Assembly: GCA_902775345.1 (NCBI GenBank)
Contig: CACYLW010000009.1
Span: forward strand, 1-64,000
Direction of reading: 5' to 3'
Source of the DNA: an uncultured Eubacteriales bacterium
GTDB lineage: Bacteria; Bacillota; Clostridia; Peptostreptococcales; Anaerovoracaceae
Length of the DNA stretch: 64,000 nt
Under the pieces are notes generated by a model. That model saw nothing but the letters and a program-made list of their open reading frames with translations. It ran no database searches and was not told the origin of the DNA. Both the position numbers and the translations under genes were made by a program. Position 1 is the first letter of the stretch; each line of letters starts with the position of its first letter. This document shows positions 6,240 to 28,797 of the stretch, in pieces.

Positions 6240-6286
6240 GGAGCCCGGCATCATAATTATTCAGAAGTCCTCGCCGGGCTCCTGTT
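6240..6286 (+). terminator. Hairpin terminator, copy A of a dispersed repeat
   Basis: Perfect 10-bp stem GGAGCCCGGC (6240-6249) and GCCGGGCTCC (6273-6282), followed by TGTTT. The loop ends in GAAGTCCTC. A nearly identical hairpin with the same loop end lies at 10292-10333, and a diverged copy at 8409-8455. Confidence 0.8.
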
Positions 6287-6359
6287 TAGCTGTGTGCAAA
6301 GGCGTTCAAACATATGGCTTGCAGAAGAGTATAATTAAGGCAGGCGGAGGTGCCGCAAC

Positions 6360-8455: not shown

Positions 8456-8554
8456 ATCTCATTTGTCGCCTCTGATGGGACCATGCAATAAGTCAATAAT
8501 GTTACAGTACAGTTGTAAGTACTGATGAAGATAAAAGACAAGGAGGGCAGAAGT

Positions 8555-9361
8555 ATGTACGGAGCAATATTAGGAGATATGATTGGCAGCCCTTACGAAT
8601 TTGACAGGGGCAGAAAGACAAAGGACTTCCCGTTCTTTGATAAGGGAGCGACCTTTACAGATGACAGCGTAATGACCATAGCAATAGCGGAGGCGCTCAT
8701 GCAGGCGATCGCTGATGGCGTCATAAACGATGAAGCAGCCACTAAGGATATGATGATCGATTCCATGCACAAATGGGGACACAGGTATCCGGGTGCAGGA
8801 TACGGCGGCCGCTTCTATTACTGGCTCAGAGACAACAGCCGCGAGCCGTACAACAGCTTCGGCAACGGCTCGGCAATGAGAGTCGCGGCCGCCGGCTGGC
8901 TGTTCGACGACCTCGACACCACCCGCAAGGTCGCAAGATGGACTTCTGAGGTCACACACAACCACCCGGAAGGAATAAAGGGAGCAGAAGCGACCGCTTC
9001 CGCGATATTCATGGCGCGCAATGGCAGCACTAAGGGAGAAATCAAAGAATACATTATCAATGAGTTCGGATACGATCTCAGCAGGTCCTGCGATGTGATC
9101 AGACCGGGCTACTACCATGTGGAATCCTGCCAGGAGACAGTTCCTGAAGCAATAACAGCATTCTTTGAAGGCAATGATTTTGAGGATGTCATAAGGACTG
9201 CAGTATCACTCGGAGGAGACTGCGACACTCTGACATGCATCTCAGGATCTATCGCCGAGGCATTTTACGGAGTTCCGGATGATCTTAAGAAGGAATGTGA
9301 GGACAGGCTGCCGGCAGACCTTCTGGAAGTACTTAAGAAGTGGACATGCAGCAGAGTCTGA
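8555..9361 (+). CDS. ADP-ribosylglycohydrolase family protein
   Basis: A 268-residue protein of the ARH/DraG family, which removes ADP-ribose from proteins or small molecules using two Mg or Mn ions. The three metal-binding blocks are present: GDMIGSPYEF (residues 8-17), FTDDSVM (about 33-39) and GGDCDTLTCISGSIAEAFYG (about 219-238). It also has GNGSAMRVA near 107. AAGGAGG decides the ATG at 8555 over an in-frame ATG at 8525. It is a single-gene unit ending at a strong terminator. Its substrate is unknown; a macro-domain gene and KptA elsewhere in the window also handle ADP-ribose chemistry. Confidence 0.9.
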   Translation: MYGAILGDMIGSPYEFDRGRKTKDFPFFDKGATFTDDSVMTIAIAEALMQAIADGVINDEAATKDMMIDSMHKWGHRYPGAGYGGRFYYWLRDNSREPYNSFGNGSAMRVAAAGWLFDDLDTTRKVARWTSEVTHNHPEGIKGAEATASAIFMARNGSTKGEIKEYIINEFGYDLSRSCDVIRPGYYHVESCQETVPEAITAFFEGNDFEDVIRTAVSLGGDCDTLTCISGSIAEAFYGVPDDLKKECEDRLPADLLEVLKKWTCSRV

Positions 9362-9483: not shown

Positions 9484-10275
9484 ATGAAAAAAAGTTTAGT
9501 AATAGTTTTAGCGTTATTCTCAGTACTTTTCCTTCTCGTAAGCTGCGGGTCATCAGAACCTGCGGAGAAGGTATATATTGAGGACTCTGAGATCGATGCG
9601 GCGCTCAGCGATAGCGATTCGTTCAAGGGCAAGTACATCAACATATCCGGTAAGGTATTCAGTGTAGAAAAGGACGGAGATACCGTAGCAATGCAGGTCT
9701 GGCATGATGCTGAGAATGCCGAGCAGCAGTTCATCGTATACGCGGATAAGGAAACCGCTTCAGGAGTGAAAGAAGACAGTTATATAAAAGTCGACGGGCA
9801 GATCACCGGTACATTCACAGGTGAGAATTACTTCGGAGGTGAGATAACAGCCATGACTATCAATGCTGATACCATGGAAGTCGGTGGATACGATGATGTA
9901 TATGCTCCGGCTGAGAGCACCAAGGAAGTAGGTGAGACCAAGGATCAGCACGGCATCAGCGTGACGTTAGACAGAGTCGAGTATGCGAAAGACGAAGCCA
10001 GGGTGTATGTTTCGGTAAATAACGAGAGCGGCGATACGGCATCGATCTACACATTTGATGCGAAAGCTATCCAGGATGGGAAGCAGTTTGAGCATCAGTA
10101 CAACTATGAAGCAGACGGTGACGAAGATATAGGAGAAGTACTCGACGGAGCTAGTAAGGAAGGCGTCATAAGGTTCAAGGGGCTGGATGCTGACAAAGGC
10201 TTCAAACTGACGATCGGAGCATACAGCGACAACTGGGAACTCGATATAGAAGACTATGTCTTTGAAATAAAATAG
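9484..10275 (+). CDS. Lipoprotein with OB-fold-like and DUF4352-like domains
   Basis: A 263-residue predicted lipoprotein. The signal peptide ends FLLVSC (Cys near residue 21). Residues about 35-130 (INISGKVFSVEKDGDTVAMQ, SYIKVDGQITGTFTG) look like the OB-fold, tRNA_anti-like domain seen in clostridial lipoproteins. Residues about 150-263 (ISVTLDRVEYAKDEARVYVS, FKLTIGAYSDNWELDIED) look like a DUF4352/DUF5067-type immunoglobulin-like domain. It is an extracellular membrane-anchored protein of unknown function. AAGGAGAG precedes the ATG. The gene is flanked by terminators on both sides. Confidence 0.75.
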   Translation: MKKSLVIVLALFSVLFLLVSCGSSEPAEKVYIEDSEIDAALSDSDSFKGKYINISGKVFSVEKDGDTVAMQVWHDAENAEQQFIVYADKETASGVKEDSYIKVDGQITGTFTGENYFGGEITAMTINADTMEVGGYDDVYAPAESTKEVGETKDQHGISVTLDRVEYAKDEARVYVSVNNESGDTASIYTFDAKAIQDGKQFEHQYNYEADGDEDIGEVLDGASKEGVIRFKGLDADKGFKLTIGAYSDNWELDIEDYVFEIK

Positions 10276-10291
10276 GCACTCCTTTACATAA

Positions 10292-10338
10292 GGGAGCCCG
10301 GCACATGAAAAATGAAGTCCTCGCCGGGCTCCCGCTTT
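10292..10338 (+). terminator. Hairpin terminator, copy B of the dispersed repeat
   Basis: Perfect 11-bp stem GGGAGCCCGGC (10292-10302) and GCCGGGCTCCC (10323-10333), then GCTTTTA. It shares stem and loop end GAAGTCCTC with copy A at 6240. It separates the lipoprotein gene from the foreign-looking operon that starts at 10484. Confidence 0.85.
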
Positions 10339-10410
10339 TATGGTTGTTTTATGTCTTAATAATTGACTCGCAAAAGGGTAATCTTATAGCTATACCTGTG
10401 ATGATGACTT

Positions 10411-10438
10411 TTGATCGGTAAGGACGCAATGGTATAAT
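10411..10438 (+). promoter_or_regulatory. Promoter of the helicase-nuclease operon
   Basis: TTGATC (10411-10416), a 16-base spacer and a perfect TATAAT (10433-10438), about 45 bases before the start codon. It is the only clear promoter seen for the six-gene block. Confidence 0.6.
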
Positions 10439-10483
10439 ATTATTCAAACAAACTATTTGTTATTGATGTATGGGAAGATGATT

Positions 10484-13441
10484 ATGAGTAGTTCTGTTCA
10501 AATCAAAGAAGCGCGTTTGAGCGATGGTTTTAAAACTGCATTTGTAAACTCGGACATAAAATCTGAAGTAGGTTTTAGATCTGAATTTATATACAACGAT
10601 TATAGAAAAGGACGAAAGGTATTATCTTCATTAGAGGATGAATTGCGTAATTGCGATTCGTTTTGTTTTAGCGTTGCTTTTATTACAATGGGCGGAATAA
10701 CACCCTTATTACAAACATTACAAGAATTAGAAAAGAAGGGGGTAAAAGGAAGAATACTGACCACGGATTATTTGACCTTCACTGATCCTAAGGCACTACG
10801 AAAGCTAAATTCTCTTACAAACATCGAAATAAAGATGTTTTCTGTTGATAATGTAATTGAAGATTTTCATACTAAAGGATACATTTTTGAGAGCGGCGGG
10901 GTGTATAGGATTATTGTTGGTAGTTCTAACATCACACACAATGCATTAACTACAAACCATGAATGGAATTCAAAGATTGTATCAACTGCTCGTGGTGAGT
11001 ATGCAGAAAGCGTTGTAAAGCAGTTTGAACTTTTGTGGTCATCTTCCCATTCGATTCCATTTGATTCATTCATTGATGCTTATGAAACTAGGTTCAGAAT
11101 TGTAAAGGAACAGCAGCAGATTGTTCGCCGCGAAAAGCTTGTATCTATCGAAGATTACAAGTTACAGCCCAACAATATGCAAGTTGCATTTGTAAAAAAC
11201 ATTGATGAGCTTAGAAAAAAAGGTGAAACCAGAGCTTTGCTCATTTCTGCAACAGGTACTGGAAAGACATATGCGTCTGCCTTTGCACTTAGGGACATCG
11301 ATCCTAGCAGAGCGTTATTTATTGTACATAGAGAACAGATAGCAAGGCAGGCAATGGAAAGTTTTAAAAGAGTATTTCAGGGAACAAAGACCTTCGGATT
11401 ACTTTCAGGAAACTGCGACCAGGGTGATGCAGATATTGTTTTTGCAACCATGCAGATGATGGCAAAGGAGAATGTTAGAACAAGGTATGGGAAAAAAGAA
11501 TTTGATACAATTGTTATTGACGAAGCGCATAGAACTGGTGCTGAAAGCTATCATAAAATTATAGATTATTTTGAACCAAGTTTTTGGCTTGGAATGACCG
11601 CAAGCCCTGACAGAATGGATGGGTTTGATGTGTATAGCTTATTTCATCACAATATAGCGTGTGAAATAAGACTTCAACAGGCGCTGGAAGATAACCTGCT
11701 GTGCCCATTTCATTATTTCGGAATCACAGATATAGAATTTGAAGATGATCACGAATTGGTTGATCTCAAGGACTTCAATAGGCTGCTTTCTAATCGGCGT
11801 GTAGATTATATTGAGAAACAAATTGAATATTATGGGTTCAGTGGAGATCGAGCAAAAGGATTAGTGTTCTGCAGTTCGATTAAAGAGGCTTCAGAACTCA
11901 GCAAAGAGTTTAACCGTAGAGGCTATAAAACGATTTCATTATCCGGATCTGATAATCAGGAAACAAGACAGGAGGCCGTTGAAAGATTAGCGAAGGACGA
12001 AGGAGAGGATATACTTCAATACATCTTTACAGTTGATATTTTCAACGAAGGTGTAGATGTGCCAGAGATAAATCAAGTAATAATGCTACGACCAACAGAG
12101 TCACCTATCATTTTTGTACAACAACTTGGCAGAGGACTAAGGAAAGCGAAGGGAAAAGAGTATGTTGTAATTTTGGATTTCATTGGCAATTACAATAACA
12201 ACTTTATGATACCTATAGCACTTTCAGGTGATAGGACCTATAACAAAGATAATGTTAGAAGGTATGTAATGGAAGGCGAGCGCGTTATACCAGGGGCAAG
12301 TACCATTCATTTTGATGAAATTGCCAAGAAAAAGATATTCGCTTCCATAGACCAAGCGAACTTTAGCGACTTAAAACTTATCAGGGAGAGTTATACAAAC
12401 CTTAAAAATAAGCTAGGTAGGATTCCATCTCTTGTAGATTTTGATCTCTATGGGGAAATAGACCCTTTAAGAATATTTGAAAAGTCTAGTTTAGGATCAT
12501 ATTATGCTTTCCTTAAAAAGTATGAGAAGGGCTATGATAAAAAGCTATCTTCTGATGAAGAAGAAATAGTTTCATTTGTATCACAAAAGCTTGCAAACGG
12601 GAAGAGAATTCAAGAACTTATACTTCTCAAGAAGGTAATCGAAAATCATAGATTCAAGATTAGTGAGCTGGCGGACATATTATTAAGGGACTACGGAGTA
12701 GTAACAGACGAAGCGGCATTAAATAATATAGTTAATGTAATGACTAATTCTTTTCCAACAGCAACAGCGCAAGAGAAATTCAAAGCATGTGTATTTTTTG
12801 AAACGAATTCGCAACAGCAAGTGACTATGTATGATGACTATACGATTGCGACAGCGTTTGAAAAGATGCTAGATAATAAGGATTTTGTAGAAATTTTAAC
12901 TGAAGTAGTTGATTTTGGAATAGCTAGGTATGAAAGAGATTATCAAGATAAGTATAAAGACACTGATTTAGTATTATATAAAAAATACACATATGAAGAT
13001 GTCTGTAGACTTCTGCGGTGGGAACACAATATAAATGCACAGAGCATAGGCGGTTATTTCTATCATAAAAGTACAAAGACATATCCTGTGTTTATTAATT
13101 ATGAAAAGCCAGAGGATATTGGAGCAACAACGGATTATGAAGATAGATTTATAAACCCTCAGACATTAATAGCTATTTCAAAAAATGGAAGGAATAAGAC
13201 TTCGCCTGATGTACAAAACTTCCTTCATTCGGAAGAACTCGGTATTGATGTAGAGCTTTTTGTAAGGAAAAATAAGGATGATAAAATTTCAAAAGAGTTT
13301 TATTACCTAGGAAGAATGAAGCCTACTGGAAAAGCAGAAGAGTTCAAAATGAAAAATACTAATAAAACTGCTGTAGAGATTGAATGGAGACTTGATACCC
13401 CTGTTCAAGAAGACATATTTCAATATATAGCTGAAGCATAG
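10484..13441 (+). CDS. PLD nuclease - SF2 helicase - DUF3427 protein
   Basis: A 985-residue protein. Residues about 30-190 are a phospholipase-D-like nuclease domain with HTKGYIF (near 129) and IVGSSNITHNALTTNHEWN. Residues about 225-560 are a superfamily 2 helicase with Walker A SATGTGKT (near 254), DEAH box VIDEAHRTG (near 345), motif III MTASPDR, and motif VI QQLGRGLRKAKG. The remainder (about 600-985) matches DUF3427, the usual C-terminal partner of such helicases. It is a likely DNA-translocating nuclease of a defence type. The ATG at 10484 is preferred, with GGGAAG upstream; a TTG at 10457 is possible. It is AT-rich: a hand count of 12901-12960 gives 17 G+C of 60. First gene of the cassette. 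Confidence 0.88.
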   Translation: MSSSVQIKEARLSDGFKTAFVNSDIKSEVGFRSEFIYNDYRKGRKVLSSLEDELRNCDSFCFSVAFITMGGITPLLQTLQELEKKGVKGRILTTDYLTFTDPKALRKLNSLTNIEIKMFSVDNVIEDFHTKGYIFESGGVYRIIVGSSNITHNALTTNHEWNSKIVSTARGEYAESVVKQFELLWSSSHSIPFDSFIDAYETRFRIVKEQQQIVRREKLVSIEDYKLQPNNMQVAFVKNIDELRKKGETRALLISATGTGKTYASAFALRDIDPSRALFIVHREQIARQAMESFKRVFQGTKTFGLLSGNCDQGDADIVFATMQMMAKENVRTRYGKKEFDTIVIDEAHRTGAESYHKIIDYFEPSFWLGMTASPDRMDGFDVYSLFHHNIACEIRLQQALEDNLLCPFHYFGITDIEFEDDHELVDLKDFNRLLSNRRVDYIEKQIEYYGFSGDRAKGLVFCSSIKEASELSKEFNRRGYKTISLSGSDNQETRQEAVERLAKDEGEDILQYIFTVDIFNEGVDVPEINQVIMLRPTESPIIFVQQLGRGLRKAKGKEYVVILDFIGNYNNNFMIPIALSGDRTYNKDNVRRYVMEGERVIPGASTIHFDEIAKKKIFASIDQANFSDLKLIRESYTNLKNKLGRIPSLVDFDLYGEIDPLRIFEKSSLGSYYAFLKKYEKGYDKKLSSDEEEIVSFVSQKLANGKRIQELILLKKVIENHRFKISELADILLRDYGVVTDEAALNNIVNVMTNSFPTATAQEKFKACVFFETNSQQQVTMYDDYTIATAFEKMLDNKDFVEILTEVVDFGIARYERDYQDKYKDTDLVLYKKYTYEDVCRLLRWEHNINAQSIGGYFYHKSTKTYPVFINYEKPEDIGATTDYEDRFINPQTLIAISKNGRNKTSPDVQNFLHSEELGIDVELFVRKNKDDKISKEFYYLGRMKPTGKAEEFKMKNTNKTAVEIEWRLDTPVQEDIFQYIAEA

Positions 13442-13452
13442 GAAAGACAATA

Positions 13453-13848
13453 ATGAGAACAATAAAAGTAGTTGCTGCAATAATTGAAAAAGATAAAAGA
13501 ATCTTTGCTACCCAAAGAGGATATGGTGATTTTAAAGATGGATGGGAATTCCCAGGTGGAAAAGTAGAAAGTGGTGAAAAGCCTGAGGATGCGTTGGTTC
13601 GTGAGATCAAAGAAGAGCTAAATGCAGACATCAAAGTAGGTGAGCTATTACATATAGTTGAGTATGATTACCCCAAATTTCACCTATCAATGAACTGCTA
13701 TATCTGTGAATTAATGTCAGAAGAAATTGAATTAATAGAACATGAGGCTGCAAAATGGCTTGACTACAATAATATCAGATCTGTGGACTGGCTTCCTGCT
13801 GATATAGAGGTGGTATCTAAGTTAGAAGAAAGGTATAGCGTTAAATAA
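13453..13848 (+). CDS. MutT-type Nudix hydrolase
   Basis: A 131-residue Nudix protein like 8-oxo-dGTP diphosphatase (MutT). WEFPGGKVESGEKPEDALVR and EIKEELNA (residues about 31-58) form an intact Nudix box, preceded by ATQRGYGDFKDG, a MutT-like approach segment. It starts 11 bases after the helicase gene with GGAAAG as ribosome binding site and is similarly AT-rich, so the two travel together. Here it may hydrolyse an oxidised, phage-modified or signalling nucleotide; that is inference. Two bases separate it from the HNH gene. Confidence 0.9.
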   Translation: MRTIKVVAAIIEKDKRIFATQRGYGDFKDGWEFPGGKVESGEKPEDALVREIKEELNADIKVGELLHIVEYDYPKFHLSMNCYICELMSEEIELIEHEAAKWLDYNNIRSVDWLPADIEVVSKLEERYSVK

Positions 13849-13850
13849 TC

Positions 13851-14885
13851 ATGATAGCTGGGCACTATCTCAACGAGGGGCAATATGATCTGAGGCAACT
13901 GAATACAGATGAGATATGGCAGGCACTGTCTACTCTCTTTACAACAAGATCCAGGAACTCAACAAGTTATAAGTACGGTTTTTTCAAGGCGATTCTTGAC
14001 AACCTGTACAATGTTGATGCGGATCTTGTTTTGACATTCGATCAGTTATTTGGCAAATTTGCTGAGATATACTGGAACCTTGTTACAAAGTACAAGGTGA
14101 AGCAGATGCCAGGAGAGAAGACATCCGCAGTAGAAACAGTCTTGACGGCTTTTGTTGAGAAGTATCATATTGCAGAGGGCGTTCCATTCGAGAGCTTTAC
14201 TGATGAGCAGAAGATACAGCTTGCTCAGCGAGTAAAAAACAAGTGCAAGCACAATGTAGTTGGAGCCCTGTATGGAGATACTGGTCAGATCTTTTACTCC
14301 TTCTCAAAACAAGGTGAGTGGATTCGCTTTAATCCACAAGTATATCAGTATGTTTGCAGGCGTAAGACAGCACTGGAAAAACTTAATTACTATGAATGGG
14401 CGAAATATCTGGAGAAAATCAATACGGCAGAAACTACACTCAATCTTCTTACAAAACTGGACGAGAGCGCAAAACGAAGCAATCTTGAGGTATACAGACA
14501 GATTTTATTCGATGAGTTTGAGAGCAGAGAATGCTTTTACTGTGGCAGAAGGCTTAAGAACGATGGAATACAGGTCGACCACTTTATTCCATGGGCATTT
14601 ATAAAAGACGACAAGCTATGGAACATGGTCCTTGCATGCCCAACGTGCAATAATAAAAAGAGAGACAAGCTCGCACCAGAATCATTCCTAAATAAGTTGG
14701 TAATTCGCAACCAAGATATAAGATTGCATTATTATAATGACAGCGTTACAAAGGTTCACAAAGGCGCGGATGTTCGCGGAGCGGAGGAGATGCGCAACTA
14801 CAGGAAAGAGGGGCTGTTGAGTATATATACTTATGCTCAGGAAAATGGTTACAATGAGCTATGGCATCCGATGAGGTTGGTATGA
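13851..14885 (+). CDS. HNH endonuclease
   Basis: A 344-residue protein. The C-terminal half carries an HNH nuclease with paired cysteines: CFYCGRRL (near 226-233), VDHFIPWAFI (catalytic His, near 243), WNMVLACPTCNNKKRDKLA (near 256-275). The N-terminal 200 residues are helical-looking (TSYKYGFFKAILDNLY, YYEWAKYLEKINT) and may recognise DNA or a partner. No transmembrane segment is seen. The last codons overlap the methyltransferase start. A role as the cutting subunit of a defence system is inferred from its neighbours. Confidence 0.85.
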   Translation: MIAGHYLNEGQYDLRQLNTDEIWQALSTLFTTRSRNSTSYKYGFFKAILDNLYNVDADLVLTFDQLFGKFAEIYWNLVTKYKVKQMPGEKTSAVETVLTAFVEKYHIAEGVPFESFTDEQKIQLAQRVKNKCKHNVVGALYGDTGQIFYSFSKQGEWIRFNPQVYQYVCRRKTALEKLNYYEWAKYLEKINTAETTLNLLTKLDESAKRSNLEVYRQILFDEFESRECFYCGRRLKNDGIQVDHFIPWAFIKDDKLWNMVLACPTCNNKKRDKLAPESFLNKLVIRNQDIRLHYYNDSVTKVHKGADVRGAEEMRNYRKEGLLSIYTYAQENGYNELWHPMRLV

Positions 14886-15472
14886 TGAACAGTACCATTC
14901 AGTATTATAATAACTGCGCTGAGGAATACTTTGATAGAACGGCACATGTGGAGTTCGATAATCTATATGATAGATTTCTGAAACATGTACCTGAAGGCGG
15001 CAGAATTATGGATCTGGGCTGCGGGAGCGGTCGCGATGTCTATTGGTTCATAAACCATGGTTATGAGGCATATGGTTTAGATGCAGCAGATAATCTTGTA
15101 ATACAGGCGCGTGACAAGTTAGGAGTACCTGTTGAAGCTGGAAGGATTGAGGCATGGTCTGCAGATGAGCCATTTGACGGCATCTGGTGCTGCGCATCAC
15201 TTATGCATATTGATGATGAGGGAATTAATAGTTTTTTCAAGAACTTGAAACATAATCTTAAGCCCAACGGAGTACTGTTTATGTCGGTCAAGGAAGGCAT
15301 TGATACCGGTATGGATAAGGATGGCAGGTATTTCAAAGACTTCTCAGAGGACTATATAAAAAGCTTTCTAAATAAAAACCCTGAACTAAGCTTAATAAAT
15401 ACGTGGCATTCAGAAGATAAAATGGGCAGGGATACTTTCAGGTGGTTGAATGCCTTGATAAAAAGAGGATAG
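14882..15472 (+). CDS. Class I SAM-dependent methyltransferase
   Basis: A 196-residue Rossmann-fold methyltransferase. Motif I is MDLGCGSGRDVYWFINHG (residues about 43-60), followed by the acidic loop GLDAADNLV. Overall it resembles small-molecule (TehB/UbiE-like) methyltransferases. No DNA-methyltransferase motif IV of the DPPY or NPPY type is seen (the position reads FDGIWCCASLMH), so it is unlikely to be the DNA methylase of a restriction-modification pair. The ATG at 14882 overlaps the HNH stop as ATGATGA and follows TGAGG. A start at 14861 would give a longer overlap. Confidence 0.8.
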   Translation: MMNSTIQYYNNCAEEYFDRTAHVEFDNLYDRFLKHVPEGGRIMDLGCGSGRDVYWFINHGYEAYGLDAADNLVIQARDKLGVPVEAGRIEAWSADEPFDGIWCCASLMHIDDEGINSFFKNLKHNLKPNGVLFMSVKEGIDTGMDKDGRYFKDFSEDYIKSFLNKNPELSLINTWHSEDKMGRDTFRWLNALIKRG

Positions 15473-15474
15473 AA

Positions 15475-15789
15475 ATGGAAGAGTTAATTAAAGCACTTCG
15501 TGAGTTCAATGAAGAACGTGATTGGGAGCAGTTCCATTCACCGGAGAATCTGGCTAAGTCTATAAGCATAGAAGCCGGAGAGCTTTTGGAGTGCTTTCAG
15601 TGGAGTAAAGATTTCAAGAGAGAAGATGTTTGTGAAGAACTTGCAGATGTATTGACATATTGCATTATGCTGGCAGATAAACTCGATGTGAGTATTGAAG
15701 ATATAGTACTTAACAAGCTTGAGAAGTCTAAGAAGAAATATCCGGTAGAAAAGGCAAAAGGGATCAGCACTAAGTACGATAAACTGTAG
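15475..15789 (+). CDS. MazG-like nucleotide pyrophosphohydrolase
   Basis: A 104-residue all-alpha NTP pyrophosphohydrolase of the MazG-like family. It would hydrolyse (d)NTPs or modified nucleotides to monophosphate plus pyrophosphate. Metal-binding acidic residues lie in SIEAGELLECFQWS (residues about 26-39) and EELADVLTYC (about 49-58). It starts 2 bases after the methyltransferase and ends 5 bases before the DUF2075 gene. A close paralogue is at 28456-28797, identical over LAKSISIEAGELLECFQWS. Nucleotide depletion or removal of altered nucleotides is a plausible role in this cassette. Confidence 0.88.
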   Translation: MEELIKALREFNEERDWEQFHSPENLAKSISIEAGELLECFQWSKDFKREDVCEELADVLTYCIMLADKLDVSIEDIVLNKLEKSKKKYPVEKAKGISTKYDKL

Positions 15790-15794
15790 AGATT

Positions 15795-17522
15795 ATGGCT
15801 TTTATTGACAGATTTGATTTTGAAATCAGTTCTGTCGGAGATATCAGAGGTCTTCGGCATTACAACAATAAGGTCGGTGAAAACTGGCCTGTTGTTTATG
15901 TGCTCAATAACGATGATGAGGCATATGTCGGTGAAACTGTAAATGTTGCAAGGCGCACAGAACAACACCTTGGAAGTGCCGGAAAACAGAGCCTTACTGA
16001 AATTCGTATAATAAGTGATAAGGATTTCAACAAGTCGGTTGTTCTTGATCTTGAGTCCTTCCTCATAAAGCATATGGCAGCCGATGGGAAGTACAAGCTG
16101 CTGAATGGCAACAATGGTATTCAGGACCATGATTATTACGAAAGGTCACGATACGAGGATGAGTTTAAAACCATTTGGAATAAACTTCGCAAACTTGGAG
16201 TCGTCAGCAGGTCGATTGAAGATATAGAGAATTCGGAACTGTACAAATACTCTCCATACAAGTCACTTGGAGATGAACAGATTGATGCTGAGATGGAGAT
16301 CATCAAAGCTTTTGAGGAGCACAAAGATGACCCTAATGGAGTTTCAATTATTGTCAGAGGCGGTGCAGGGACCGGAAAAACGATTCTGGCAATTTATCTC
16401 ATGAAGCTCTTCGCAGACATTAACTCAAAGGGCATAGAGAATGATGATCCGGATGACTACCTGGACGAAGATTTTGATTATATATATGCGTCAGAGAGGC
16501 TGGATGGAGTAGAAAAAATAGGTATCGTATTCCCTCAAAAGTCACTCCGCTCCTCGTTAAAGGATGTTTTCAAAGGCATAAGAGGTCTTTCTCCTGATAT
16601 GGTTCTTGATACGACTGATGTTGTAAAAAACTATCTTGATACAGGCAAAAAATACGACTTGCTTATCGTTGATGAAGCTCACAGACTCAAATGCCGTAAC
16701 AAAGGGCATTTATCATTTTATGGTAGGTTTGATGAGTGTAACAGGAAGCTTGGCCTTGATAAAATGCTGGGAACCGAACTTGACTGGATTTACAAATGCA
16801 GCAAGAGCCAGATAATATTCAGAGATGATCTACAAACTATCCGCCCGTGCGATATAGATGCGGAAGACTTCCGGGAAATCATAGAAAACAGATACCCTAA
16901 AACAATCGTTGAACAGGCCCTGGAGACGCAATGGCGCTGCAAAGGCGGTAATGACTACATCAATTATCTGAGAAAGATCCTAAGCTGCGAGCCGGTAATG
17001 TATAAAGACATCGAAAATTATGATTTCAAGCTCTATACAGACGTTGGCAAAATGGTTGATGATATCAAATTGCTGAACGACAGGTATGGGCTATGTCGCA
17101 ATGCTGCCGGATACGCGTGGAGATGGGTCACCAAAAAAGACAAGTCGGCTTACGATATTGTCATTGGTAACAATAAGTACAGATGGAACTCGACTTATGA
17201 CAACTGGATCACAACACCTAATGCTGTGAATGAAATAGGCTGCATACATACTGTTCAAGGGTATGATTTGAACTATCTCGGCGTGATTATCGGTGAAGAT
17301 ATCAAATACGACTCAAAGACCAAACAGATCTATGCTGACAAAAATAATTATTATGATCAGCAAGGAAAATCAGGTGTTGCAGAGGATCCGGAAGCTCTGA
17401 GAGAGTACCTGACTAACATATATCTGACTCTTATGACGCGCGGCATACGCGGCACCTACGTATACGTGTGTGATCCGGCGCTTAGAGAATACATGTCGCA
17501 GTTTATACCGGTGGTGAAATAA
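15795..17522 (+). CDS. GIY-YIG nuclease fused to DUF2075 ATPase
   Basis: A 575-residue protein. An N-terminal GIY-YIG-like domain has PVVYVLNNDDEAYVGETVNV then ARRTEQHL (residues about 32-59). The rest is a DUF2075 helicase-like ATPase with Walker A RGGAGTGKTI (near 187) and Walker B LLIVDEAHRL (near 290). Further blocks are ETQWRCKGGNDYINYL, GCIHTVQGYDLNYLGVIIG and LMTRGIRGTYVYV, typical of this SF1-like family. It is the last certain gene of the co-oriented cassette. G+C is intermediate (27 of 60 at 16321-16380). Function is inferred: a nucleic-acid motor with its own nuclease. Confidence 0.87.
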   Translation: MAFIDRFDFEISSVGDIRGLRHYNNKVGENWPVVYVLNNDDEAYVGETVNVARRTEQHLGSAGKQSLTEIRIISDKDFNKSVVLDLESFLIKHMAADGKYKLLNGNNGIQDHDYYERSRYEDEFKTIWNKLRKLGVVSRSIEDIENSELYKYSPYKSLGDEQIDAEMEIIKAFEEHKDDPNGVSIIVRGGAGTGKTILAIYLMKLFADINSKGIENDDPDDYLDEDFDYIYASERLDGVEKIGIVFPQKSLRSSLKDVFKGIRGLSPDMVLDTTDVVKNYLDTGKKYDLLIVDEAHRLKCRNKGHLSFYGRFDECNRKLGLDKMLGTELDWIYKCSKSQIIFRDDLQTIRPCDIDAEDFREIIENRYPKTIVEQALETQWRCKGGNDYINYLRKILSCEPVMYKDIENYDFKLYTDVGKMVDDIKLLNDRYGLCRNAAGYAWRWVTKKDKSAYDIVIGNNKYRWNSTYDNWITTPNAVNEIGCIHTVQGYDLNYLGVIIGEDIKYDSKTKQIYADKNNYYDQQGKSGVAEDPEALREYLTNIYLTLMTRGIRGTYVYVCDPALREYMSQFIPVVK

Positions 17523-18706: not shown

Positions 18707-19243
18707 ATGAGTGACAAAAGCACCAGCAAATATATAAGCCTGATATTACGACATAAGCCCGAAGTCATTGACATCACTCTCGATGAGCATGGCTGGGCGG
18801 TTGTCGATGACCTGATTAGGGGCGTGAACAAGACTCATCCTCTGGATATGGAGACGCTTGAGCGTATCGTCGCTGAAGACGAAAAGCAGCGCTACTCCTT
18901 CAACGAAGACAAGACCCTCATCAGAGCCAATCAGGGTCATTCGATCCCGGTCGATGTAGAACTGCCGGAAGTGATACCTCCGGCGGTTCTTTATCATGGA
19001 ACGGGAGTAAAATATAAGGAAGCTATAGATGCAGAAGGACTGATCCCGAAGTCAAGGCTGTACGTGCACCTCTCAGGTGACGTGGATACAGCGAGAAAAG
19101 TAGGCCAGAGGCATGGCAAGCCGGTGATCTATACTGTAGATGCGGCAGCGATGCATGCTGACGGCTACACGTTCTACCGCTCGGTTAACGGAGTCTGGCT
19201 GACTAAGGAAGTTCCTGCAAAGTATTTAACTATCATTAAATGA
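18707..19243 (+). CDS. kptA: RNA 2'-phosphotransferase KptA/Tpt1
   Basis: A 178-residue enzyme of the KptA/Tpt1 family. It transfers an internal RNA 2'-phosphate to NAD+, giving ADP-ribose 1''-2''-cyclic phosphate and nicotinamide. The expected Arg-His-Arg-Arg elements are visible: LILRHKPE (residues about 12-19), YHGTG (near 95), [20 protein letters not shown] (about 118-137). Length matches the family. Bacteria mostly lack tRNA splicing that would need it, so its role may be RNA repair or ADP-ribosylation of nucleic-acid ends. Carbonic anhydrase follows after 13 bases. Confidence 0.93.
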
Positions 19244-28455: not shown

Positions 28456-28797
28456 ATGAAACAGGAAACGATCGACAGGATCAGAAAATTCACATCAGAC
28501 AGGGAATGGGAGCAGTATCACACTCCGGCAAATCTCGCAAAGAGCATTTCTATCGAGGCAGGTGAGCTGCTCGAGTGCTTTCAGTGGAGCGATACGGACT
28601 TTGATATAGACCACGTGAAGGAAGAACTGGCGGATGTGATGGTATACTGCCGCAACATGCTTGATGAGCTCGGACTCGACGAGGATGATATCATAAACAG
28701 CAAGATGGATAAGAACGAAGCGAAGTATCCTGTGGAGCTCGCGAAGGGCAGCGCAGAAAAGTATACCGAGCTTAAGAATAAAAAGAAGGAGAGGTAA
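28456..28797 (+). CDS. MazG-like nucleotide pyrophosphohydrolase
   Basis: A 113-residue MazG-like enzyme and paralogue of 15475-15789. The two share LAKSISIEAGELLECFQWS exactly, the EELADV helix, and KYPVE-AKG near the end. Acidic metal-binding residues are intact. It presumably clears non-canonical (d)NTPs. Here it is linked to housekeeping genes: its stop overlaps the start of ybaK as TAATG. A Lys-rich tail of ten residues is extra compared with the cassette copy. Confidence 0.9.
   Translation: MKQETIDRIRKFTSDREWEQYHTPANLAKSISIEAGELLECFQWSDTDFDIDHVKEELADVMVYCRNMLDELGLDEDDIINSKMDKNEAKYPVELAKGSAEKYTELKNKKKER

Follow-up and report, generated by a model that had tools for sequence, protein, structure and literature searches.

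Background

SauUSI, as described in the portions available of two texts on the enzyme, is a single-polypeptide system (PMC3874153, PMC7913695) which is triggered by 5-methylcytosine (5mC) or 5-hydroxymethylcytosine (5hmC) (PMC7913695), and the accessible part of a third report describes CMoRE, a modification-dependent Type IV enzyme with a GIY-YIG nuclease (PMC12923530). The nucleotide hydrolase DCTPP1, according to the available part of one study, favours deoxycytidine triphosphate (dCTP) and 5-methyl-dCTP, and two of its tryptophans touch the methyl-bearing base in docking (PMC4491611). Nhi and AbiO are systems in which a nuclease domain is followed by a helicase. The PADLOC collection contains PDC-S07, a label which we take to denote a stand-alone candidate. 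The present work concerns an operon of six genes in a 64,000-nucleotide stretch (the window) at the start of contig CACYLW010000009.1 (assembly GCA_902775345.1), from the 2.25 Mb draft genome of an uncultured Eubacteriales bacterium of the Anaerovoracaceae. The operon is probably a composite, likely defensive, in which a known enzyme family and its hitherto overlooked partner are joined by a conserved pair that is apparently without a name and by a pair formed by an HNH nuclease and a methyltransferase.

An earlier note, made from the letters of the window, had proposed that the six genes are a candidate undescribed defence system, and had allowed that they might be two or three modules side by side. 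The latter is the better description, because three pairs can be recognized, each of which is found without the others. The reading as a single undescribed system is not supported, because gene 1 belongs to the SauUSI family and gene 2 has a counterpart among the PADLOC candidates; the proposal survives for the pair formed by the MazG gene and the GIY-YIG helicase gene, which is conserved and apparently without a name so far.

Results

Gene content and recurrence of the operon

The coordinates of the open reading frames (ORFs) confirm six + strand genes separated by gaps of 11, 2, -4, 2 and 5 bases, and the domain calls of the earlier note (PLD-SF2-DUF3427, Nudix, HNH, methyltransferase, MazG-like and GIY-YIG-DUF2075) agree with the domain search. 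The genes are the following.

10457..13441, + strand: gene 1, SauUSI-family Type IV restriction enzyme (PLDc_2, SF2 helicase and DUF3427/SRA-type reader; PADLOC and PDB matches)
13453..13848, + strand: gene 2, MutT/Nudix hydrolase (NUDIX domain; PADLOC, NCBIfam and PDB matches)
13851..14885, + strand: gene 3, HNH nuclease of a CxxC-bearing subfamily (HNH_4, PF13395, 2.2e-11)
14882..15472, + strand: gene 4, class I S-adenosylmethionine-dependent methyltransferase, partner of the HNH nuclease (domain match; PDB 3e23, 9.6e-23)
15475..15789, + strand: gene 5, MazG-like pyrophosphohydrolase of the dCTPP1/RS21-C6 type (PF12643, 1.7e-20)
15795..17522, + strand: gene 6, GIY-YIG nuclease fused to an SF1 helicase of the Schlafen-group-3 type (PF01541, PF09848)

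The starts of genes 4 and 5 are ATG codons within longer ORFs that open at 14861 and 15442, respectively, and translation of gene 1 probably begins, to judge from the bases around it, at the ATG at 10484, which is preceded by GGGAAG.

The same genes are met together again in both related and unrelated genomes, which speaks against assembly by chance. The six-gene order, whose conservation the earlier note had left to be checked, is repeated in one genome (G030) and permuted elsewhere, with the pairs moving as units; the lack of recurrence that the note would have taken as a refutation is thus not what is seen. Of the 47 genomes of the genus, 13 carry the helicase gene, the genome of the window among them, and MazG adjoins it in 11 of these. 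All six genes are found in three: that of the window, G030, and G004, where the order is SauUSI-MutT-MazG-GIY-HNH-methyltransferase. Two more (G026 and G042) hold five genes, lacking MutT and carrying a SauUSI-like gene of another subfamily (about 31-33% identical), whereas their MazG-GIY pair is 65-91% identical to that of the window; six have the MazG-GIY pair only, and two the helicase gene only. The SauUSI-like genes of G030 (with a stop) and G042 (split) look damaged. Outside the genus, a Lachnospiraceae-labelled contig of a metagenome-assembled genome (L080), which is short and could be misbinned, contains all six genes in the order of G004, and the first two pairs occur together in four lineages and several orders: MutT-SauUSI-MazG-GIY both in G060/L040 and on a Lactiplantibacillus (L. 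plantarum) plasmid (L232), MazG-GIY-SauUSI-MutT in Dielma (L104), and the two pairs on opposite strands in Agromyces (L147). A contig from a viral collection (L243) has the order SauUSI-like-MutT-HNH.

A scan of named genomes yielded 559 confirmed relatives of the helicase, and 80 loci were examined, some of which share contigs with the genomes above. When every gene up to 6 kb away from one of the 80 helicase genes was clustered without supervision, with families in at least 4 loci kept and related loci counted singly, nine families including the helicase were obtained, among which the five cassette partners are prominent (MazG in 59 loci, SauUSI-like in 10, HNH in 6, methyltransferase in 6 and MutT in 5). 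We consider it highly probable that the operon is a modular composite of three exchangeable gene pairs and likely, though with less assurance, that it serves defence.

The most serious alternative is that the three modules are independent neighbours in a defence island, which share a promoter without any coupling between the pairs. Every pair does occur without the others, as the six genomes with MazG-GIY alone illustrate; SauUSI-MutT stands by itself at most loci of the Bacillota sample described below, HNH genes without the methyltransferase are found in G193, G332, G408, G401 and G427, and gene orders vary. Against this, the first two pairs reunite outside the genus, and the unsupervised count, which was made without a defence-island background, returns cassette members as recurrent partners. 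The probability that we assign to independent neighbours is not far short of even.

The SauUSI-like enzyme and its MutT partner

Gene 1 resembles SauUSI from end to end: it matches the PADLOC model mREase_IV at 1.8e-210 and the solved structure of SauUSI (PDB 7CLG) at 4.6e-205, with residues 14-952 of 953 aligned. A single chain carries the PLD nuclease, the SF2 ATPase and DUF3427, as the SauUSI type requires; the catalytic HxK(x)4E motif is kept (FHTKGYIFE, residues 137-145). Of the six residues of the predicted 5mC pocket of SauUSI, four are kept (Tyr831, Phe841, Ile842 and Asp858) and two are replaced. Unlike the single-polypeptide system, however, gene 1 sits in a six-gene operon. Gene 2 matches PDC-S07 over nearly its whole length (7e-51), but occurs here as the partner of SauUSI-type enzymes; its match to the NCBIfam MutT model (TIGR00586) reaches 93.7 bits, below the curated cut-off of 97.9, and its best PDB matches are 3gwy, a “putative CTP pyrophosphohydrolase”, and the MutT structure 5x1x.

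Among 348 sampled Bacillota genomes, 16 (the genome of the window included) have a strong SauUSI-like match, and the other 15 loci were inspected. In 11 of the 15, a MutT gene is no more than 50 bp distant from the SauUSI-like gene (six on the same strand and five tail to tail); in one it is 1.6-1.7 kb away, and three have none. SauUSI itself is likewise immediately preceded by MutT: in a Staphylococcus aureus record (L230), an annotated pyrophosphohydrolase gene stops one base 5' of the SauUSI start, and the adjoining 500-residue piece matches residues 1-499 of 7CLG with 1095 bits. The words “MutT” and “Nudix” are absent from the portions available of the two SauUSI texts (PMC7913695 and PMC3874153). 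On a Hymenobacter plasmid (L231), an HNH gene (1-585) lies about 1.9 kb 5' of a MutT-SauUSI pair.

The MazG gene and the GIY-YIG helicase gene

In 73 of the 80 helicase loci a MazG gene adjoins the helicase gene, lying upstream on the same strand in 71, downstream in one (L148) and on the opposite strand in one (L097). A script found 69 of these neighbours, and L151 and L104 (both upstream), L148 and L097 were added by inspection; of the remaining loci six have no adjoining MazG, and in one the contig is too short. The two genes overlap by 4 bases in 22 of the 69. The loci carry the labels Bacillota, Bacteroidota, Actinomycetota, Pseudomonadota, Bdellovibrionales, Patescibacteria-type, Caldisericia, Neomarinimicrobiota and Firestonebacteria. 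In the Bacillota sample the helicase gene is rare (2 of 348 genomes, that of the window included, at E 1e-60), and it is therefore accessory.

The best named PDB relatives of gene 5 are of the dCTPP1/RS21-C6 type (4qgp, 2a3q, 6sqw and 7mu5), from which the bacterial copies differ in being coupled to a nuclease-helicase gene. The metal-binding acidic residues and base-pocket tryptophans of DCTPP1 (Glu63, Glu66, Glu95, Asp98, Trp47 and Trp73) are kept in all 73 MazG proteins and Tyr102 in 61 of them; the MazG of the operon keeps seven of the eight docked dCTP-pocket residues in a 12-row alignment (A4). A second, stand-alone dCTPP1-type MazG gene lies at 28456-28797 (+) of the window, with 71% DNA identity to gene 5 over 93 bases.

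Gene 6 matches PF09848, now called “Schlafen group 3 helicase” and formerly DUF2075, with 193.7 bits against a cut-off of 24. The active-site residues Y35, Y44, R54, E87 and N104 of the GIY-YIG domain, which are catalytic in nucleases of this type, are present in 33 of 33 aligned proteins, and the Walker residues of the helicase are invariant or nearly so in the same alignment. The predicted structure (pLDDT, the predicted local distance difference test score, 87.7) has an SF1 helicase core like those of UvrD, HelD, Schlafen-11 and Dda; the VIA comparison barely reaches the residues before about 104, which make up the GIY domain, and so speaks to the helicase part. No separate sensing domain was seen. 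Nhi and AbiO give weak PADLOC matches at the helicase start (1.3e-8 and 8.1e-7), which extend over about 50 residues rather than the full length, and gene 6 differs from both in its GIY-YIG nuclease and its MazG partner; CMoRE is likened to it by description only. A scan of viral contigs with the helicase alignment produced no confirmed relatives, PADLOC 2023 has no MazG model, and, among the matches listed from the open literature (subscription papers and preprints fell outside the scope), none brings a GIY-YIG or DUF2075 helicase together with MazG in a defence setting.

Discussion

A proposed mechanism and its alternatives

We propose that the operon acts against invaders through three exchangeable two-gene modules. 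The SauUSI-type enzyme, accompanied by MutT, would scan DNA until a C5-modified cytosine switched it on for translocation and cutting; the GIY-YIG nuclease-helicase, accompanied by the dCTPP1-type MazG, would cut foreign or replicating DNA; and the HNH nuclease with its methyltransferase would form a third cutter. MutT and MazG would hydrolyse C5-modified or phage-made dCTP, and in this way the mark that triggers the nucleases would be kept out of host DNA while the invader would be deprived of the same nucleotide. The suggestion of the earlier note that the hydrolases alter nucleotide pools is thereby narrowed, through the dCTP-type pocket of MazG, to a candidate substrate. The identities of the genes, the conservation of the pairs, their permutation and the exchange of parts are the observations from which this proposal departs; the defence function, the substrate of the hydrolases and the triggers of the GIY and HNH enzymes are suppositions. 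We put the probability of the mechanism as a whole at roughly 55%. The role of both hydrolases in clearing modified dCTP is a part of it which we hold to be less likely than not, and slightly less likely than before the exception described next.

One prediction was checked, namely that MutT should be missing where Asp858, the cytosine-reading residue of SauUSI, is altered. In an initial count MutT was present in 22 loci and absent in two where Asp is kept, as against none and three where Asn replaces it (p 0.0034). After the addition of eight loci the figures became 27 and 4 for Asp and 1 and 3 for Asn (one-sided Fisher test about 0.02, worked by hand and with relatedness ignored). The Asn enzymes without MutT are those of L189, L191 and L234, which perhaps read a different modified base, and Asn arises at two separate places on the SauUSI-like tree, which predates the inclusion of L235. 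Two loci were counted as having MutT despite its distance (L197, at 1.6-1.7 kb, and L213, at 0.6 kb); L200, L164, the second gene of L198, L107, L148, L098 and L240 were left unscored because the residue is missing, and L230, L244, L245 and L044 because they were unaligned.

Several observations weigh against the mechanism. The link between MutT and Asp858 is a trend only, with a sole exception in L235, a broken gene that combines Asn with MutT. Two of the SauUSI pocket residues are replaced in gene 1 (Met829 by Gly and Trp868 by Ala), and gene 2 is closer by score to the 8-oxo-dGTP MutT enzymes than to NudG. His38 of DCTPP1, which contacts cytosine, is found in none of the 73 MazG proteins, 70 of which have Leu, Ile or Val at this position and the others Tyr, Phe or a gap, and among more divergent plasmid homologues of the helicase MazG adjoins in just 2 of 8 loci. 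The unsupervised clustering also returned families from outside the cassette (ABC-transporter-like in 6 loci, ADP-ribosylglycohydrolase in 5 and RhuM-like in 4, the first and third named by reading). A point in favour of the mechanism is that a search of the window's own genome for a C5-cytosine methyltransferase (PF00145) found none, with the control positive in 10 of 14; across the genus the family occurs in 2 of 14 genomes with a SauUSI-like match and in 8 of 33 others, which gives no signal of exclusion.

A somewhat unlikely alternative makes the hydrolases general house-cleaners of oxidised or damaged nucleotides, which would aid repair after nuclease action and be unrelated to the triggers. 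The affinity of gene 2 for the 8-oxo-dGTP family and the stand-alone MazG gene elsewhere in the window speak for it, as does a mycobacterial MazG that, in the available part of the report, cleans 5-OH-dCTP (PMC3855555). House-cleaning nevertheless fails to account for the association of one particular Nudix type with SauUSI and of one particular MazG type with the GIY helicase. It is quite improbable that MazG and MutT instead form an abortive-type effector which drains the deoxynucleoside triphosphate (dNTP) pool when an infection has been sensed by the nuclease-helicase. Depleting dNTPs is an established means of defence, and the overlap of the MazG and GIY genes marks them as a coupled two-gene unit, but MazG resembles modified-dCTP pyrophosphatases rather than dGTPases or deaminases, and no activation domain was seen.

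The HNH nuclease and its methyltransferase

The third pair of the proposed composite is found together in the window, G026, G004, G042, G030, L080 and L090, with a remote version in G415. The HNH gene occurs in 6 of the 47 genus genomes, namely those of the window, G030, G004, G026 and G042, together with a contig-end fragment in G044 which, as in the window, comes after SauUSI-MutT. The methyltransferase of the window shares 55-58% identity with those of G026, G004 and G042, but its HNH protein just 23-24% with theirs, while the HNH proteins of these three are 88-92% identical among themselves; the HNH of the window is 38-42% identical to those of L167 and L168, both distant genomes. Because the partner methyltransferase is conserved and the HNH subfamily is distant, the HNH gene appears to have been swapped between old subfamilies while the methyltransferase was retained. 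A conventional restriction-modification pair is very unlikely, since, although the nuclease and methyltransferase genes are adjacent with a 4-base overlap, the HNH partner can be exchanged for one about 23% identical, and gene 4 resembles small-molecule methyltransferases (TehB, PMT), its sequence showing on reading none of the DPPY/NPPY or PC motifs of DNA methyltransferases.

A structure model of the HNH protein (pLDDT 37.7) was not used. In L168 (8460-9850), an HNH gene of the window's subfamily is next to what we read as dndBCDE genes, and a MazG-like gene of a different kind comes after it. Of five plasmids inspected, three have a cysteine desulfurase gene in the vicinity of a related HNH gene. 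A search of the window's own genome for dndC (TIGR03183) gave no match, with a weak control (5 of 14 matched, none above cut-off).

The upstream region and the surroundings of the operon

Two features lie 5' of gene 1.

10275..10360, + strand: strong hairpin 5' of the promoter-like site, which may terminate the gene before it (-29.7 kcal/mol, z -3.06)
10411..10438, + strand: promoter-like site TTGATC-16-TATAAT with an extended -10 TG, among the four best-scoring sites of the promoter scan

The promoter that the earlier note placed after a terminator thus corresponds to a site which is present, although such sites are no more frequent than expected (28 in the scan against 25.0, standard deviation 5.1, in shuffles), and the hairpin is plausible as a terminator, its 20-base loop exceeding that allowed in the terminator scan. 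A 24-base sequence occurs at 6264-6287 and again, with 92% identity, at 10314-10337 within the hairpin, and is possibly a shared terminator element.

The operon lies in a long series of small genes (about 564-49443), most of them with a single domain and all read as being on the + strand, which include AlkZ-like, Nudix, HIRAN, thioesterase, KptA, nitroreductase and DNA polymerase IV genes; no convincing integron-like cassette repeats were found in 1-50000. Genes for an ADP-ribosylglycohydrolase (8525-9361) and for the RNA 2'-phosphotransferase KptA (18707-19243) flank the operon, and in 5 of the 80 helicase loci a member of the former family is again found no more than 6 kb away from the helicase gene.

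Conclusions

A general rule may be considered, although we regard it as doubtful, in which modification-triggered nucleases each travel with an enzyme that clears the matching modified nucleotide, as SauUSI with MutT and the GIY-YIG-Schlafen helicase with MazG. Such an enzyme would be a pool antidote against self-recognition which would also starve phages of modified dCTP, and the rule would cover SauUSI itself. If the proposed mechanism is wrong, the conserved pairings will still call for explanation. If it is right, Type IV restriction loci would have a second function in the control of the nucleotide pool, there would be a reason why defence islands contain Nudix and MazG genes, and a widespread two-gene unit, MazG with the GIY-YIG-Schlafen helicase, would be added to those already described.
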